A DNA stretch of 27,517 bases, taken from the NCBI GenBank assembly GCA_016190245.1, contig JACPQY010000053.1:1-27517 (forward strand). The letters are read 5' to 3'. Source of the DNA: Nitrospirota bacterium (GTDB lineage: Bacteria > JACPQY01). Below are positions 4,001 to 26,638 of this stretch, one piece after another (the stretch's first letter is position 1; every line of letters begins with the position of its first letter). The notes below the pieces were generated by a model. That model worked only from the letters and a program-made list of their open reading frames with translations. It ran no database searches and had not been told where the DNA came from. Both the position numbers and the translations under genes were made by a program.

Positions 4001-4552
4001 ATGAGTCGTTTCTGGGAGAACCGGGCGCCGGTTCGAGACGGGCGCGTGGGCTTCTTGTGCGGTGTCGTCGGGTTGGCGGGGATGCTGGCCTGCTCGAACG
4101 CCGTCAACCGGTCGGAGGGGAGCGGAGGGGCAAGCACGCCCGCGCCCATCGAGATCCCCGCGGATTTTTCCGGCATGGAGAAACGCAGCGTGCAGCTCCA
4201 GAACGATGTCGGTGCCCCCGTGGTGGTTGAGGCGCGCGTGGCCGATGCCCCGGTGGAGCAGATGGCGGGGTTCCAGAACGTTCCCGAGGAGGTCGCGCGA
4301 GGCGAGGCGATTCTGTTTCTCTTCCAGCAGGATTCGGTTGCGCCGTTCCACATGCGCAACGTGAAGATCGCGCTCGACATCCTGTTCTTCGACGCCCGCG
4401 GCTATGCCGTGAGCAATCAGCGGATGGAGCCCGACCCGGATCGCCTCTGGAGCGCCGGGTCCCCCTATCGCTTCGTGCTGGAACTGCCGGCCGGTCGAGC
4501 GGAGGAGTTGAGGCTCGGCGCCACGTCGCGGCTCTCTGTGCCGATCAACTGA
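4001..4552 (+). CDS. DUF192 family lipoprotein
   Basis: A 183-residue protein. The ATG at 4001 has a near-perfect AAGGAGG (3986-3992) 8 bases upstream, so the longer frame running back into the repeat array is rejected. Residues 16-30 are hydrophobic and end in GMLAC, which makes Cys31 the likely lipidation site. Residues about 60-180 match the DUF192 pattern: a short strand and charged helix, a FLFQQDSVAPFHMRNV segment corresponding to the family's P-F-x-M-K-N-T motif, then LDILFFDARGYAV and a C-terminal FVLELPAG strand. The family consists of small secreted or exported beta proteins of unknown biochemical role. The gene converges on the next gene with 39 bases between them. Confidence 0.85.
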   Translation: MSRFWENRAPVRDGRVGFLCGVVGLAGMLACSNAVNRSEGSGGASTPAPIEIPADFSGMEKRSVQLQNDVGAPVVVEARVADAPVEQMAGFQNVPEEVARGEAILFLFQQDSVAPFHMRNVKIALDILFFDARGYAVSNQRMEPDPDRLWSAGSPYRFVLELPAGRAEELRLGATSRLSVPIN

Positions 4553-4591
4553 CCCCGCGGCGGGTTCGTTCCCGGGTGCCGGGCCGCCACG

Positions 4592-10064: not shown

Positions 10065-11234
10065 ATGGCTCGACCCATCCGCCACCTGCGAGCCGTAAAG
10101 CGAAACGAACGGGCCGCCTCGCGCCCCGGCCGAACCGGGCCGGAGCCGAACGGGACGGCCGCGGCGGTCAATGCCGGCAACGGCGCGGTTCCTCAGCCGG
10201 AGCCGATCATCGTAAGTCCACCGCCCCCAACGCCGGCCCCGTCTCCACCGGAGCCCGAAGTCGAGCGCCCGCGGCGGACCCCACCGAAGGCGACCGACTG
10301 GCCGAGCGTCTTCGGCCGGTCCCTGCTCACCAACATCAAGATGGTGGTGAGCGGCGTCAGCGAGGCCGGCAACGTCGCGAAGAACGTGCTCGATCACTCC
10401 ATCTCCCTCGCCGGGCGCGTCGCGTTCGGACAGAAATACATGGACGAGCGGCTGAAGGCCTATCGCGGACAGCGCCGCGTCGCCTTCCTGCTCCCGGGCT
10501 ACATTCAGGGGACCGCGGCCTTCGCCCGGACGGAACGGATCATGGAATCCGAACTGTTCGGCATCTTCCCGGTTACACTGAGCTACCAGCCTTACTCGCA
10601 GGACTTGCGCAAGTCATCCGAGAAGGCTCGCAAGCAGATTGACTTCGTGCTCCAACGCACGGACCCCCGCCGCGTGTACCTCGTGGGCCACAGCCAGGGC
10701 GGTCTCGCGGCGCGCTACATCATCCAGGTCATGGACGGGCACACCTTCGTGAGCCACTGCATTACTCTCGCGACGCCCCACTTGGGCACCTACGCCGCCG
10801 TGCCCGGCGGCATCTTCCACGGGATGGCCACGAAATTCCTGGCCTCGGCCGGCATTCTCCCTCGGATCGAAGGGGAGAGCGGCCTCCAGATGATCCCGGG
10901 CAGCCGGCTCCTCAGCGAGCTGAACCACCGGCCGCTGCCGTCGAACGTGGAATTCACGTCCATCTACAACTACATAGATCCGCTCGTCTGGCCTCCGAGC
11001 TATGCGCGGCTCCCGTACGAGGACTGCCACAACATCCTGCTCAAGAAGATCGGCCACTTCCACGCCCTATACGACATCCAGGAGATAGAGATCATCCTCC
11101 GCTCGCTCCTCCTGCGCATCCGTCGCGGGCTCATCTATCGCCGCCGCGTGCTGGCGGGCCAGCAGGTGCTGGAGGAACGGCACATGGAGATGGTGGGACA
11201 CGAAGTGGAGGAGTTCGTTGCCGCCTCCGACTGA
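10065..11234 (+). CDS. Alpha/beta hydrolase (lipase-like)
   Basis: A 389-residue protein from the ATG at 10065, two bases after the preceding stop and therefore probably translationally coupled. Residues 1-75 are basic, then proline-rich (PPPPTPAPSPPEPE), a flexible lead-in without a clear signal peptide. The hydrolase core spans about 137-345: an oxyanion-type LLPGYIQGT strand, the nucleophile elbow GHSQGG with Ser210, a TPHLGT loop, candidate Asp305 in YNYIDP, and His331 or His333 in the GHFHALYD segment. The pattern resembles PGAP1-like and triacylglycerol lipase domains. The substrate is unknown, and ester or lipid cleavage is inferred. An internal segment (residues 95-122) is amphipathic and could associate with membranes. 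The DUF1499 gene starts inside its last codons. Confidence 0.88.
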   Translation: MARPIRHLRAVKRNERAASRPGRTGPEPNGTAAAVNAGNGAVPQPEPIIVSPPPPTPAPSPPEPEVERPRRTPPKATDWPSVFGRSLLTNIKMVVSGVSEAGNVAKNVLDHSISLAGRVAFGQKYMDERLKAYRGQRRVAFLLPGYIQGTAAFARTERIMESELFGIFPVTLSYQPYSQDLRKSSEKARKQIDFVLQRTDPRRVYLVGHSQGGLAARYIIQVMDGHTFVSHCITLATPHLGTYAAVPGGIFHGMATKFLASAGILPRIEGESGLQMIPGSRLLSELNHRPLPSNVEFTSIYNYIDPLVWPPSYARLPYEDCHNILLKKIGHFHALYDIQEIEIILRSLLLRIRRGLIYRRRVLAGQQVLEERHMEMVGHEVEEFVAASD

Positions 11235-15973: not shown

Positions 15974-17766
15974 TGGCGGAGACCCCGTCCACGCCGTCGC
16001 GTGAGGTCCAATTTCTCCGTGGCGGCCTGCGCACCTACGTCCTTCTCCGATGGGTCATGGCGGCAGGCGTGGCCATCTTGTTCGTGCCGGCCTTGGCCGG
16101 TCCGTTTTCACTGGATCGCAGATTCACCGCTTCCGCCTTCCTGGGGCTTGCGGGGAGCACGGCGATCCTCGAGGCCGTCATCCGTGCGGGGGTGGAGAGG
16201 AAAGGGAGACTCTTCGCCACGTTCCTGCTGGACGCCGTGCTCGTGGAGACCATCAGTCACGCCATGGGAGGCGCGTCCTATGGTTTCCGCTACTTCTGCG
16301 TCTTCGTCCTTGTCTTCGCGGCCAGCCTGCTCTCCAAGGGGCCTTCGCTCGCCGTTGCACTCCTGATCGCCGGACTCCACACGCTCTACCTGGGAATGGA
16401 GTTTCTGGGCGTTCTCCCCCGTCTGGATTTCCCGGCCGACTCGCCTGCGCCCCGCCTGACGGACCTGTTCTACTCGACGGTGCCGCATGACTTCATCGTG
16501 CTGGCGGTCTGGTGGACCGTCTCGAATCTGGCGGGTCTCCTGCGGGAGGAGATCCGGGGGGCGGAAGGCCACGCCCAGGACCTGGATCGAATTGTGGCCG
16601 AGCGCACGCGCCAGCTCGAGATCGCACAGCAGGCGATGATTCGTTCCGAGAAGCTCTCCGTGCTGGGCCAGACGGTGTCCAGCGTTGCGCATGAGCTGAA
16701 CAACCCCCTCACCGGCGTTCTAGGCTACGCCCAACTTCTGAAGACCGCGCCCACTGGAAGCGACACGGCGTTGCTGATCGAACGGCTCAACCAGGAGGCG
16801 GAACGATGCCGCCGGATCGCGCGCAACCTGCTGGTCTACTCGCGGGAGAGCCTCCCCGAGAAGAAGCCGATGGACGTGAATTCTCTTGTTCGTGACGTGG
16901 CGGAAGTCAGACGCTACAATGCGGTGGCCACCGGCCTTTCCGTGGAACTCGAACTGGTGCCGGATCTCCCGATGGTCGAAGGTGATGTCAACCAACTCCG
17001 CCAGGTTCTGCTCAACGTGATTTTGAACGCCGAGCAGGCGATCGCCGAAACCGGCCGTCCCGCACAGGGCCGGATCGTCATCAGGACGGGTGTCCTGGTC
17101 CGGACGGATGCCGCGTCCCGATCGCGCGAGATCTTCATCCGCATTTGGAACAACGGCCCCACCATTACTCCGGAGGTTCAGATGCGGCTTTTCGAGCCCT
17201 TCTTCACCACCAAGGAGCCCGGGAAGGGCACGGGATTGGGGCTTTTCGTGGCGACCAACATCATGGCGGCCCACGGGGGCACGATCGGCGTGGAGAACGG
17301 GAACGGGGAGGGCGCGGCGTTCACGCTCCGCCTGCCGGCGGGTGAGACGCAGGTGGCGCACCATCACGTCAAGCCCGTCGAGGCTCCCCCTCTTGTACAA
17401 AAGCGCTCCCCGCGGCGGGTGCTCGTGGTGGATGATGAGGATTTCATCAGGGACGTCGTCACCCAGGCCCTTTCTGCGGACGGAGACACAGTCCTGTCCG
17501 CGCGCGACGGTCCCGAGGCGCTTGAGATTCTCGCCACGGAGACACCCGATGTCATTCTGGTGGACTACCGGATGCCGGGGATGAGCGGGGAAGACGTGGC
17601 TCGCGAGATCGGACGCCTGTACCCGGCGCTGGCGAAGCGGATTGTCATCGTCTCCGGTCTCAGTGCCTCCGAGGAGCTGAGAGATTTTCTCAGCCGGTCC
17701 GGCCTGCCGCACATGACCAAGCCATTCAACCTCGACGAGCTGAAAGGGATGGTCCATGGCCGCTGA
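15973..17766 (+). CDS. Membrane hybrid histidine kinase with C-terminal receiver
   Basis: A 597-residue protein from the ATG at 15973, overlapping the preceding stop by one base. Residues 22-190 contain about six membrane helices with little outside them, a MASE-like membrane sensor. A coiled coil (195-228) leads to HisKA with His240 in VAHELNNPLTGVLGYAQLL. The ATPase domain has Asn352 in NVILNAEQAI, a G1 box altered to NNGPT (D-x-G-x-G expected), FEPFFTTKEPGKGTGLGL and a normal G2. The receiver domain (about 481-597) has Asp487/488, phosphoacceptor Asp531 in LVDYRMPG, Ser561 and Lys583. There is no HPt domain, so phosphate passes to its own receiver or to the HD-GYP protein encoded next, whose start overlaps it by 11 bases. 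Confidence 0.93.
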   Translation: MAETPSTPSREVQFLRGGLRTYVLLRWVMAAGVAILFVPALAGPFSLDRRFTASAFLGLAGSTAILEAVIRAGVERKGRLFATFLLDAVLVETISHAMGGASYGFRYFCVFVLVFAASLLSKGPSLAVALLIAGLHTLYLGMEFLGVLPRLDFPADSPAPRLTDLFYSTVPHDFIVLAVWWTVSNLAGLLREEIRGAEGHAQDLDRIVAERTRQLEIAQQAMIRSEKLSVLGQTVSSVAHELNNPLTGVLGYAQLLKTAPTGSDTALLIERLNQEAERCRRIARNLLVYSRESLPEKKPMDVNSLVRDVAEVRRYNAVATGLSVELELVPDLPMVEGDVNQLRQVLLNVILNAEQAIAETGRPAQGRIVIRTGVLVRTDAASRSREIFIRIWNNGPTITPEVQMRLFEPFFTTKEPGKGTGLGLFVATNIMAAHGGTIGVENGNGEGAAFTLRLPAGETQVAHHHVKPVEAPPLVQKRSPRRVLVVDDEDFIRDVVTQALSADGDTVLSARDGPEALEILATETPDVILVDYRMPGMSGEDVAREIGRLYPALAKRIVIVSGLSASEELRDFLSRSGLPHMTKPFNLDELKGMVHGR

Positions 17767-21966: not shown

Positions 21967-23829
21967 CTACGCTCCTTTCGTGCAGATCAGCAGCCCGTAC
22001 ACCGAGAACGGTGGCAAGGAGATTTCCAGGCGGCCGGACGCGACGCGGGCGGCGATTATGCGCGACTCGCCATCGGGTGTTTTGAATTGTGCGTCCGGGC
22101 AACCGGTGTGCCCCTCGGGAAGGGGCAGGCTGATGGCGGACGCGGGTGTGGTCCGGAACTGCCCTGCGTCACGGTCGTAGTCGTAGTTGACGAAGTGGGC
22201 AACAAGATCGCCGGACGAGGGCTCTGCCATCGTGACCGTGATCGTGGAAGGGAGATCGCCGAGCACGGCCCACCCGCCCGCGTCCGAGGCGCTGAGTGTG
22301 GACACGATGCGCCCGCCAACGCGTTCGAACTCATCGAGCGCGGCACGATCCTCTTCCGCGAAGGTCGTCCCCGGCGGCACCACGAGGACCTCGAACCTGT
22401 CCAGGTCGGCAGCCCTCAAGCGGCGAGGAATGACGGCCTCGTCCCCCGCGTACACCACGTCGAAGGGGATATGTTCGGACTGGAGTTGCTCGCCGGCTGA
22501 GAGGAAGGCGTTGTGGTGCCCGGTCGTGGTGTAGGAGAGAGCGTAACCCATGTCCAGAAACTCGTCGAGCGAGGTCTTGAACGAATAGACGAGGCCGACC
22601 TTGGCGAGCCACCGGGCCTCCCGCAAGTCTCTGCGACCCCACGCGAAGGCCGCCATCGGTCCGATTACGTCCTCGGGCACTGTGGCCGGGCCGGTCACGG
22701 TGGTGAGTCCGCCGCCGAAGACGTAGGCGTTGTGGGGCAGGAGGAACGACTGTTGCGCCGCCCACGCCTCCGCGAAGCGCATTGCGATCGTGGACCAGTC
22801 CCGGCCGCTTTCGACCATGTCGCGAAGGTTGATGATGTTGGGAAAGGCAGCGGTTACCCCCTTACGCAGCAGGTGGTAGCCGAGGCGGTGCAGCGCCACG
22901 AGACGGCCTTGAGGCGGGAGCGGAAGCATGACCTCGTAGACGAGGAAATCGAGGACCGTGGCTTGGACTTGGTACTGAGGCCCTAGGTTCACAGCATTAC
23001 CCGCGAAGCCGACTTCGCGCCCTGCCACTTCGCGTGTGTGTCGGATCAGGTCGGCGAGTTGGGCGCGGCGGCTGAGGAGCTGGAACCGGACGAACTCGCG
23101 GCGGAGGTCCGCGTTGGGGTCGTCCCCGAGTGAGCGGGCACCCGCGCCGTTGAGATATGCGCGATAGTCGAACGAGTCAATATCCGTGATGCCGAAGGTG
23201 TCGCGGAGGCGCGCTGCGGAGAAGAGACCTTTCATGTGCGAGCGGAACGCGACGATAGAATCGGGATCGAAGCCGAAGAGGTAGAGGTGTCCGCCCACGC
23301 CCTCCACTTCATCAATGTGGAGCGCATCCACGCCGCCACGGGCATGCTCCGCCGCGCGCCGCTTGAGGAAGTCCTGCCACTCGGGATCGTTGTGCGAGGG
23401 GAGATAGGGCGGCTCGGGCTGGAGCCACATGGCGAGTGCCGGCTCGCCGGCAAGATCCTGCGTGGCGGTCCGGCGGAGGAAGTCGGGGTCGGATGCGGCG
23501 GGATCGGCGGCCATCACGGTGGGCGAGCCCTGCATGGTCGGGAAATTCGAGGCCACGCGGATGCCCTCAGCCTGGAGTTCGCGCGTGTAGGCGAGTTGGG
23601 CGTCGTTCACGCCGCCGTGGAAAACCGACCACGCGATCCCCGTGCCCGACACGGCCTTGAGGTAGGAGAGGGGCGGTTGGCCGTAGACGAAGATCTGGTA
23701 CTCGCGCGTCCAGGCCGGACCGGCCGGCACGTCTGCATCGGTCCCGCGGGTGGCCTCGCAGGCGACCAGCGAGGCGATCAGCAACACCGCGCCGATTCTG
23801 GTGTGGTATCTGCCGGGAATCTGTCTCAC
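21967..23829 (-). CDS. Glycoside-hydrolase-like lipoprotein
   Basis: A 620-residue protein. The GTG at 23829 overlaps the acyl-CoA dehydrogenase stop (GTGA), with GAGGAAGG directly before it. The signal peptide ends LLIASLVAC, giving lipidated Cys24. Residues about 45-400 look like a TIM-barrel glycosidase fold, with a FHGGVNDAQLAYTRELQAEGI strand-helix unit and a GGVDALHIDEVEG strand whose Asp or Glu could be catalytic. A smaller alpha/beta domain follows (LVYSFKTSLDEFLDMGY, then FEVLVVPPGTTF and GGRIVSTLSA), like the beta-galactosidase trimerisation domain. The end is a beta sandwich with HFVNYDYDRDAGQ. The family is close to uncharacterised barrel proteins of GH42/GHL type; the sugar substrate is unknown. 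Confidence 0.75.
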   Translation of the reverse strand: MRQIPGRYHTRIGAVLLIASLVACEATRGTDADVPAGPAWTREYQIFVYGQPPLSYLKAVSGTGIAWSVFHGGVNDAQLAYTRELQAEGIRVASNFPTMQGSPTVMAADPAASDPDFLRRTATQDLAGEPALAMWLQPEPPYLPSHNDPEWQDFLKRRAAEHARGGVDALHIDEVEGVGGHLYLFGFDPDSIVAFRSHMKGLFSAARLRDTFGITDIDSFDYRAYLNGAGARSLGDDPNADLRREFVRFQLLSRRAQLADLIRHTREVAGREVGFAGNAVNLGPQYQVQATVLDFLVYEVMLPLPPQGRLVALHRLGYHLLRKGVTAAFPNIINLRDMVESGRDWSTIAMRFAEAWAAQQSFLLPHNAYVFGGGLTTVTGPATVPEDVIGPMAAFAWGRRDLREARWLAKVGLVYSFKTSLDEFLDMGYALSYTTTGHHNAFLSAGEQLQSEHIPFDVVYAGDEAVIPRRLRAADLDRFEVLVVPPGTTFAEEDRAALDEFERVGGRIVSTLSASDAGGWAVLGDLPSTITVTMAEPSSGDLVAHFVNYDYDRDAGQFRTTPASAISLPLPEGHTGCPDAQFKTPDGESRIIAARVASGRLEISLPPFSVYGLLICTKGA

Positions 23830-25001
23830 CCTTCCTCTAAGAGCTCTCTCGCGATCGTGTTCTTCAGGATCTCCGAGGTGCCCTCACCGATCCGGCCCGC
23901 CCGGGCCGTGCGGTAGATGCGCTCGATGGGGAGATCTCTCATGAAACCCATGCCTCCGTGGATCTGGAGCGCGGTGTCCACGACGCGACAGATCATCTCC
24001 GTGGCGTTGAGTTTGAGCAGACTGGCCTCCATCCGGGCGGCCTGACCCCGCGTGAGCATCCAGGCGGTGGAGTAGAGCATGCACCTCGCGGCGTGGACCT
24101 GCCCGGCCATGTCCGCCAACATCCACTGGATCCCCTGTTGCTCGGCGATCGGTTTCCCGAATGCGACTCGGGTCCTGGCGTGCTGGATGGAGAGGGCCAC
24201 GAGGAACTCCCCAACACCCACGAAGTACGCGGACATCGCGACGCGGTTGTGGCTGATCCATTTCATGGCGGAGGCGAAGCCATAGCCGACCCGCCCGAGA
24301 ACGTTCGCTTCGGGCACTTCGCAGTCCTCGAAGATGAGCTCGCATTGGTTCTTCTTGCCGGCCATCGTCTGGTGGATGCGGCCGATCCGGAAACCCGGCG
24401 TACCCTTCTCGACCAGGAAACAGGTGATCCCACCGCGCGCGCGCTTCTCCTTGTCCGTCACCGCGAACACCATGGCGAAATCGGCAAACGGCCCGTTCGT
24501 GATGAAGTGTTTCGTGCCGTTGAGGACGTAGCGGTCGCCTGTCTTGGCCGCGCGCGTTTGGATAGCGGTGGCGTCGCTCCCGGCGCCCGGCTCGGAGAGT
24601 CCGAAGCAGCACGTTTTGTCCCCCCGCATGAGCGGCGCGAGGAACTTCTCGCGCTGGGTGGGCGTGCAGTCGAGCAGGATGTGGGTGGGGCCGCCGAAGC
24701 CGCCCAGGACCTCGGATCCCAGGATCGAGTTCTGCCGGCCGACCTCTTGCTTGAGCAGCGCCAGCGTGAGCGCATCGATCCCGCCGCCTCCGACATCCTG
24801 AGGCATGTGGATGCCGTAGAAGCCGAGCTCGACCGAGCGCTTCCGCACGCGGGTCTTGACGTCCTCGGGGATGTCGTCCTCCTCGAAGAGCCGGAGCGAC
24901 CGTTCGATCGGGAGGACTTCTTCGGTCAGGTAGCGCCCGAGGCTGTCCTTCAGCATGAGCGCCTCGTCGGGCACCGGGAAGGGCGGGGCGGCACGCGACA
25001 T
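23826..25001 (-). CDS. Acyl-CoA dehydrogenase
   Basis: A 391-residue flavoenzyme that oxidises the alpha-beta bond of an acyl-CoA and passes electrons to ETF. The ATG at 25001 has AGGTG 8-9 bases upstream. The N-terminal helical domain is residues 1-130. The FAD-binding beta domain contains FGLSEPGAGSD and the FITNGPFADFAMVFAV strand. The C-terminal helical domain has RVAFGKPIAEQQGIQWMLADM, QIHGGMGFM and RIGEGTSEI, with the catalytic-base position Glu373 retained. The signature does not give the chain length of the substrate. It is first in the four-gene minus-strand unit but has no neighbouring enoyl-CoA hydratase, thiolase or CoA ligase, which is odd for fatty-acid breakdown. A palindrome (25032-25047) lies 31 bases upstream. 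Confidence 0.95.
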   Translation of the reverse strand: MSRAAPPFPVPDEALMLKDSLGRYLTEEVLPIERSLRLFEEDDIPEDVKTRVRKRSVELGFYGIHMPQDVGGGGIDALTLALLKQEVGRQNSILGSEVLGGFGGPTHILLDCTPTQREKFLAPLMRGDKTCCFGLSEPGAGSDATAIQTRAAKTGDRYVLNGTKHFITNGPFADFAMVFAVTDKEKRARGGITCFLVEKGTPGFRIGRIHQTMAGKKNQCELIFEDCEVPEANVLGRVGYGFASAMKWISHNRVAMSAYFVGVGEFLVALSIQHARTRVAFGKPIAEQQGIQWMLADMAGQVHAARCMLYSTAWMLTRGQAARMEASLLKLNATEMICRVVDTALQIHGGMGFMRDLPIERIYRTARAGRIGEGTSEILKNTIARELLEEG

Positions 25002-25047: not shown

Positions 25048-25094
25048 GCGGTCATCCGACCCGGGGGAGAGGGCCGGTCAGGCCTCGAGGACGG

Positions 25095-25136
25095 AGCGGG
25101 CGAAGGGATTTGAACCCTCGACCCTCGCCTTGGCAA
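25095..25136 (-). pseudogene. 3' fragment of tRNA-Gly(GCC), candidate attachment site
   Basis: Read on the minus strand, the segment contains the anticodon loop TTGCCAA (25130-25136), a variable loop GGGTC, and a T arm GAGGG-TTCAAAT-CCCTT (25103-25119). It ends with the acceptor strand CGCCCGC (25096-25102) and a discriminator T. The 5' half of the tRNA (acceptor, D arm, 5' anticodon stem) is missing, and the bases that replace it cannot pair with the 3' anticodon stem. Loss of similarity exactly at the anticodon loop is what a tyrosine recombinase crossover leaves at one end of an integrated element. Confidence 0.75.
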
Positions 25137-25265
25137 AGCTGCAAGGCGGTTTTTTCGCGTTTTCCGTAAGTCCCGAAAAATCGTGATTCTTTCGACGTGA
25201 CTGGATGTTACACCGACCACGCTGTAAACTCATGCAATCGTGAGAAAGCCAAGAAAAGGCCATCG

Positions 25266-25285
25266 TAGCCACACTATAGCCACAC
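25266..25285 (+). repeat. Two TAGCCACAC direct repeats spaced one helical turn apart
   Basis: TAGCCACAC occurs at 25266-25274 and again at 25277-25285, an 11-base step, so both copies face the same side of the helix. In integrated elements such pairs near the end are often integrase arm-type or excisionase sites; here that is inferred from position only. Confidence 0.6.
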
Positions 25286-25440: not shown

Positions 25441-26361
25441 ATGGCGACGTGGCGGACAAGCCGCCTTTCGGAGCGGGAGAACGCTGAACAACGCGAGCAA
25501 AGGGTGGAGGCTCTTTGGGACCAATTCAACGCCTTGGTGAGGTTTGCGAAGATGGGCGATTACGAGGCCTGGATCATGCGCCTGCACCTGGCATTCGGGA
25601 GATTTCGGGAAGACTGGGATGACGTGACCGCCGCGCCGGTTGAGTACGAGAGACTTGAGGAGGGGGACTTCAAGGGTCAGGTTTTTTCCAGGCGCACCGG
25701 ATTCCCGCGCTACCTGACAGTAGGCCCCGGAGGGGTGCGGGTGGCGAAGGCGGATGAAATTGAAAAACTCCGACGCAAATATCCCCGGCTGTGGTGGGTG
25801 TGGGACTGTGCGGAGCGAACGAGTCACCTGCAATTCATCCCCCGCCATTACATCTGGCAACGCGGAGGGGTGAACATTCACGACGCCGTGAAGCTGGCGA
25901 TTCTCATTCACCCGGACACGACGAAAGAAGACGTAGGGCGGGCATGGAAAGCCGTCAACACACTCAAGCGTCAAGTCTACAACGTAGATGTGTACCCCCG
26001 GTCGAAAGTCCGCGTCCCATTCAACGAATGGCCGGACATTGTGAGGGGGTGTGAGAAAATCAACGGACGCGGGAAGTATGCGAAGGTGGCCAGGCTGTTC
26101 ACTATCAAGCGGGACACCGTGAAAGCGCTTTACCAGCTTGCCAAGCGGTACGTGTTCTCCGGTCCACCGGAAGCGTATCAGGAAAGTGATCGGCCCGATG
26201 CCATCGAAGAAGCAAGGCGCGAAGATGCGAACCGAACGGGCCGGATGAAGCTGGACCCGATCTACAAGCCCCGCCTTTGTTCCTACGTGAAGATGACCCC
26301 CGAACAACGCCAGTTGAAGAAGCAGGCCGACGCCCTCCTGAAGCAGTCCCGCGAGAAGTAA
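25441..26361 (+). CDS. Unknown element-borne protein, possible DNA-binding
   Basis: A 306-residue protein from the ATG at 25441; no good ribosome-binding site is seen (an AGGAAGG lies about 14 bases or more upstream). It is charged, tryptophan-rich and has no signal peptide or membrane helix. Residues about 125-200 (WVWDCAERTSHLQFIPRHYIWQRGG onward) look like a compact mixed domain. Around 213-240, KYAKVARLFTIKRDTVKALYQLAKRY has the helix-turn-helix rhythm of a DNA-binding segment. The C-terminus is basic with a probable coiled coil (TPEQRQLKKQADALLKQ). I do not recognise the family. Its place before an AlpA-like protein and a primase suggests a role in replication or control of the element. 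Confidence 0.7.
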   Translation: MATWRTSRLSERENAEQREQRVEALWDQFNALVRFAKMGDYEAWIMRLHLAFGRFREDWDDVTAAPVEYERLEEGDFKGQVFSRRTGFPRYLTVGPGGVRVAKADEIEKLRRKYPRLWWVWDCAERTSHLQFIPRHYIWQRGGVNIHDAVKLAILIHPDTTKEDVGRAWKAVNTLKRQVYNVDVYPRSKVRVPFNEWPDIVRGCEKINGRGKYAKVARLFTIKRDTVKALYQLAKRYVFSGPPEAYQESDRPDAIEEARREDANRTGRMKLDPIYKPRLCSYVKMTPEQRQLKKQADALLKQSREK

Positions 26362-26440: not shown

Positions 26441-26638
26441 ATGATGGATGAAAACACGAAGCTACTCACCCCCCGCGAAGTCGCGGCCATACTGCGGTGC
26501 TCGGTTGAGGCCCTCTACGTCCGCCGGGCACGGGGACTCACAAGCCCTCCGGCGATCAAGTTGGGGAAAAAGTTACTTTACGACCCCGTAGACGTTCGAG
26601 CTTGGATCGAAGAAAACCGGGAGCGCCGGGAAAAGTGA
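26441..26638 (+). CDS. AlpA/excisionase-type helix-turn-helix protein
   Basis: A 65-residue protein built as a single MerR-like winged helix-turn-helix (HTH_17 class): LLTPREVAAILRCSVEALYVRRARG (helix-turn-helix), then PPAIKLGKKLLYDPVDVRAWIEEN, with the typical turn, strand and final helix. Such proteins serve as excisionases/recombination directionality factors or as small regulators in prophages and integrative elements. A second ATG lies at 26444 and either could be used. The gene is followed without a gap by an 11-codon frame and the primase gene. Confidence 0.85.
   Translation: MMDENTKLLTPREVAAILRCSVEALYVRRARGLTSPPAIKLGKKLLYDPVDVRAWIEENRERREK

Follow-up and report, generated by a model that had tools for sequence, protein, structure and literature searches.

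A mobile element integrated in a tRNA-Gly(GCC) gene of a Nitrospirota bacterium and its complete homologue in a tRNA-Thr(CGT) gene

Does half a tRNA gene near the end of a bacterial contig mark the end of an integrated element, and if so, where is the other end, and what kind of element lies between? The question is raised by the stretch of DNA analysed here (the window), 27,517 nucleotides that make up an entire contig, C42, of a Nitrospirota genome (G000; 3.29 Mb in 86 contigs, about 85% complete). Positions 25093 to 25136 of its minus strand hold the 3' half of a tRNA-Gly(GCC) gene, beginning with the first base of the anticodon loop and running to the acceptor end, and read TTGCCAAGGCGAGGGTCGAGGGTTCAAATCCCTTCGCCCGCTCC, with GCC in the anticodon loop, followed by the T arm and the 3' acceptor strand. 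As expected for a half gene, ARAGORN called no complete tRNA anywhere in the window, and Rfam called none in the half-tRNA part. An earlier note, made from the window's letters, had recognised this half gene on the minus strand and given it the correct place, 25095 to 25136; the length has to be revised, as the segment shared exactly with a second locus (see below) is 2 bases longer, 44 in all.

A genome-wide search with the 44-mer, in which up to 3 mismatches were allowed, returned exactly two matches in the 3.29 Mb, both perfect, against 0 for the reversed pattern in the same genome, which excludes a chance origin of the pair. The second copy is located on another contig (C10:225258-225301), within an intact tRNA-Gly(GCC) gene (Rfam 69.8 bits). 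Both the direct repeat of 40-odd bases and the intact tRNA at the other end of the element had been predicted. The prediction placed them, together with a recombinase, to the right of the window; all three exist, but they sit on C10, because C42 ends at the last base of the window. To the left of the 44 bases the two loci differ, with the tRNA 5' half on C10 and, as the note had claimed, unrelated DNA on C42; to the right, the sequences diverge as well. The identity begins at base 1 of the seven-base anticodon loop, which is one of the known crossover subsites within tRNA genes (PMC4383910). The attachment sites can be reconstructed as tRNA 5' half + core + gtcctcg (attB) and gcagct + core + aagattt (attP).

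The tyrosine recombinase that was to be sought near the second copy is encoded just downstream of the intact tRNA, about 94 bp past it, by a gene pointing toward the tRNA. It has 381 codons from the longest start, or 364 from an ATG that overlaps the stop of a ribbon-helix-helix (RHH) gene. The protein matches PF00589 (2.8e-33) and PHROG 1 (6e-75), its best solved-structure match is HP1 integrase, and the catalytic-domain motifs RRGE, HDLRH, and GH...RY can be read by eye in the sequence. Among the best matches listed for named phages and plasmids, identity is only about 30%, and no second integrase of the same family was found in the genome. The geometry fits an integrated element: going downstream from the intact tRNA, one meets first the integrase and then the displaced 3' fragment, which is oriented like the tRNA.

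The C42 part of the element (Table 1) carries three genes, the last of which runs off the contig end. C10 terminates 5.2 kb past its tRNA and holds, from the tRNA inward, the integrase, the RHH gene, one gene without family, an Hjc-like nuclease, a small gene pair, others without family, and an open reading frame (ORF) entering from the contig end. The distance from tRNA to fragment is thus at least 7.6 kb seen across two contigs, plus the gap between them; the element's middle is absent because both contigs break off inside it. G+C content is 60.3% in the C42 part and 58.8% in the C10 part, compared with 65.7% and 64.7% in the respective flanks. The acyl-CoA dehydrogenase-like gene in the C42 flank has its best identity, 54%, with loosely placed metagenome-assembled genomes. 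The primase/helicase fragment is 35-45% identical to relatives on viral contigs, which otherwise yielded just distant integrases and generic primases and no close relative of the element. No defence cargo was found in the element; a weak match of the primase to a DnaG model associated with RT was not counted as such.

Table 1. Coordinates of the half tRNA gene, the element, and its flank in the window
Feature	Position	Strand	Evidence
Acyl-CoA dehydrogenase-like gene, chromosomal flank just outside the element	23826..25001	-	Many bacterial genomes carry full-length relatives
Displaced tRNA-Gly(GCC) 3' half, the attachment core at the element's far end	25093..25136	-	Exact 44-bp match inside the intact tRNA at C10:225228-225302
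Element DNA on C42	25137..27517		2,381 bp, cut by contig end; other 5.2 kb on C10; lower G+C
Paired direct repeat TGTGGCTATAGTGTGGCTACGA, probable integrase arm-type site	25263..25284	-	Four exact copies in two genomes
306-aa protein without assigned family	25441..26361	+	ORF; no match in Pfam, PHROGs, NCBIfam, or PADLOC
Candidate excision factor, a DNA-binding protein of HTH_17 (AlpA-like) type	26441..26638	+	PF12728, E 2.9e-09; PHROG 66 excisionase/regulator, E 6e-07
TOPRIM primase/helicase, N-terminal part, cut by contig end	26670..27515	+	PHROG 239 DNA primase/helicase, E 5.6e-16

A complete element of the same kind was found in a relative from the same family (G001), the search of the phylum having reached these two genomes only. 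It lies in another tRNA gene, tRNA-Thr(CGT) on contig C16, which is intact; with a 47-bp exact copy of the tRNA-Thr(CGT) 3' half at C16:15143-15189, its length is 5,857 bp. Its integrase, beside the tRNA, is 74% identical to that on C10. In transcription order, the element encodes a 212-aa protein without family, an HTH_17 protein, a DUF3987 helicase/primase, three proteins without family, an RHH protein, and the integrase, with one doubtful ORF on the opposite strand. The gene order across C42 and C10 parallels this arrangement: in both elements HTH_17 adjoins the primase/helicase gene and the RHH gene overlaps int by ATGA. The two HTH_17 proteins are 31% identical. This tRNA-Thr has a full-length match in the window's genome, on C28, and dnaB, a neighbour of the relative's element, has no tRNA-Thr beside it there.

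The earlier note had also proposed a comparison with a related genome lacking the element. The relative has a whole tRNA-Gly(GCC), in whose vicinity no integrase of this kind lies; its neighbourhood is partly common to the C10 side, but the C42-side flank is not syntenic, and the joined flanks of C10 and C42 match no relative as one unit.

Several further loci were noted. (i) On contig C18 of the relative, an intact tRNA-Gly(CCC) is followed by two displaced 5' halves (43-bp repeat) with a tyrosine integrase beside each (L232:2525-2596; L233:6617-6659 and 16933-16975), which look like two islands in tandem, both of the rare 5'-fragment type. (ii) Beside the relative's tRNA-Gly(GCC), on C12, there are 3'-end repeats of 16 and 18 bp and a 5'-end repeat of 19 bp (L231:10415-10430, 10527-10544, and 10814-10832), possibly scars of earlier insertions. 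(iii) A truncated and rearranged integrase copy (62% identical) occurs with an Hjc-like gene on C58 (L230:7555-9213), in DNA that matches the element's C10 part at 76-86% identity; this locus is a decayed relative of the element. (iv) The small gene pair (56 and 93 aa, 84-85% identical) is shared between C10 (L014:2632-3102) and C18 of the relative (L233:10682-11155), an instance of cargo exchange between our element and an island bearing an unrelated integrase; it is possibly a toxin-antitoxin pair. (v) A near-identical repeat of 25-31 bp is common to all these elements (L014:3104-3134 and 4545-4575; L229:12147-12175; L230:9189-9213; L233:3246-3274), and in L229 it sits at the 3' end of a 146-aa gene.

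Near both ends of the element we found the sequence TGTGGCTAYAGTGTGGCTACGA, which comprises two direct repeats spaced 11 bp apart and is oriented alike at both ends with respect to the core. Such 22-bp double-repeat sites occur four times in the two genomes of the phylum, once near each end of each element, at 48 and 127 bp from the core here and at 49 and 124 bp in the relative's element. At up to 3 mismatches there were no further sites elsewhere in the two genomes, and control patterns had no matches. We read them as probable arm-type sites of the integrase. It is rather doubtful that the paired TGTGGCTAC sites are instead operators of the RHH protein. In viral contigs (L246:2332-2351, L247:1879-1898, and L249:2443-2462), small RHH-like genes have the paired motif ahead of them or between them, which hints at an RHH operator type, but in the element the promoter region of the RHH gene lacks it, and it is confined to the two element ends, close to the core. 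Five matches to the motif were obtained in viral contigs, none of them (0/5) together with genes of the element.

The assembly itself leaves C10 and C42 unjoined, and the contig-end sequences and the relative's helicase match nothing else in the genome bin that could serve as a bridge. The open-ended ORFs at both contig ends read from C42 into C10, which is consistent with a short gap. We considered the C10-end ORF as the C terminus of the C42 primase and rejected it: the direction fits, but there is no family match. The missing join, and the tandem islands known at one tRNA on C18 of the relative, would also suit a situation in which each of C10 and C42 carries one end of a separate element, or in which elements are arrayed in tandem at this tRNA; the joined element would then not be one unit. 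We consider this quite improbable, in that the genome contains just two copies of the core, the end sites match at conserved spacing, and the gene order is that of the complete homologue. We infer that the two contigs join across a short unassembled gap.

With an intact tRNA, a 44-bp repeat, an integrase gene, the paired sites close to each end, and a homologue that is complete, integration of the element is close to certain. The best explanation of the locus as a whole is very probably that a tyrosine integrase inserted an integrative mobile element into tRNA-Gly(GCC) by a crossover in the anticodon loop. It is hardly credible that the half tRNA is an old relic, or a fragment that arose by chance, to which no element belongs. 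The relative's tRNA-Gly(GCC) does have short scars of tRNA ends beside it where this integrase is lacking; here, 44 exact bases in the correct orientation are accompanied by an integrase, by paired sites at the ends, and by a homologous element that is complete, and the second copy of the 44-mer together with the integrase contradicts a relic.

For this integrative element, we propose that the integrase recombines attP of the circular form with attB in the anticodon loop. The element would supply its own copy of the tRNA 3' half, and the displaced original 3' half would mark the far end, on C42; the tRNA next to the integrase, on C10, would remain whole because the element brought its own 3' half. 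The integrase would bind the paired end sites, the HTH_17 protein and the RHH protein encoded by the int-overlapping gene, as candidate excision factors, would direct excision, and the primase/helicase would copy the excised circle. Transfer most likely depends on a helper, via phage particles or otherwise.

No virion genes (capsid, terminase) and no relaxase or conjugation genes were recognised in the complete element of the relative, and it is for this reason that a small phage satellite spreading with a helper appears to be its most likely form, to which we give about an even chance. Nearly as much weight, a little short of even, belongs to a prophage that has shrunk, or to a mobilizable element that conjugation moves. 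All such elements have integrase, HTH, and primase genes, and the relative has a decayed integrase copy on C58; against this, the complete homologue is compact at 5.9 kb, its integrase looks intact, its ends match, and neither a structural gene nor a relaxase was recognised in it. Exact ends, sites, and recombinase can now be given for a mobile element in a phylum represented by two genomes in the set searched. Furthermore, the two closely related integrases, with different tRNA targets and near-identical arm-like sites, are a natural pair for the study of target choice.

Among known systems, the element is a textbook tRNA-integrated island. In the Islander catalogue, anticodon-centred sites and 3' fragments are common types of tDNA-integrated islands (PMC4383910), and the likeness extends to an intact tRNA gene, a displaced 3' fragment in the same orientation, a tyrosine integrase between them, and crossover in the anticodon loop. 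In both genomes, intact tDNA and fragment lie on the correct sides in the same orientation (tRNA-Gly in the window's genome, tRNA-Thr in the relative) with the integrase inside the island. Islander asks for 2-200 kb between tDNA and fragment; the window's element shows at least 7.6 kb plus the gap, and that of the relative 5,857 bp. The only departures are that our element is divided between two contigs and that its host phylum is barely sampled; neither is a difference in kind. VEIMEs and tycheposons, as far as they are described where cited in PMC11389934 and PMC10803314, are elements of marine origin for which a phage-satellite nature or carriage in virions has been proposed. By these descriptions, they are likewise integrative, with tyrosine recombinases and a proposed phage dependence, and differ in being known from marine bacteria.

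A further comparison is with the phage-inducible chromosomal minimalist islands (PICMI) of Vibrionaceae (PMC10803314), the smallest phage satellites known. The relative's element resembles them in its size of about 6 kb, in having no recognisable capsid genes, and in its set of integrase, AlpA-type PF12728 protein, and DUF3987 primase, the three genes of the PICMI search model; the window's element has the integrase and PF12728, and its primase, cut by the gap, shows a TOPRIM start and no DUF3987. In PICMI, a small gene overlaps int, most often by ATGA (a common, not universal, feature), and both it and AlpA are needed for excision (PMC10803314); the ATGA overlap with int is found in both elements here, the overlapping gene being of the RHH type. 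The differences are that (i) PICMI lie next to fis, an integration site that the authors call a PICMI hallmark, and the elements here lie in tRNA-Gly(GCC) and tRNA-Thr(CGT), (ii) the repeats are 44-47 bp here versus 17 bp in PICMI, and (iii) the hosts belong to another phylum; the PICMI authors report no complete example outside Vibrio (PMC10803314). If the satellite reading is true, the minimal satellite gene set reaches beyond Vibrio. More specifically, and tentatively, these may be minimal phage satellites of about 6 kb with the PICMI kit outside Vibrionaceae, in a barely sampled phylum, in which tRNA targets (Gly in one species, Thr in another) replace fis and the same paired end sites are kept. 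As the relative's gene kit and the ATGA overlap match but fis does not, we suggest that the element may function in the manner of a PICMI-type satellite and do not call it a PICMI.
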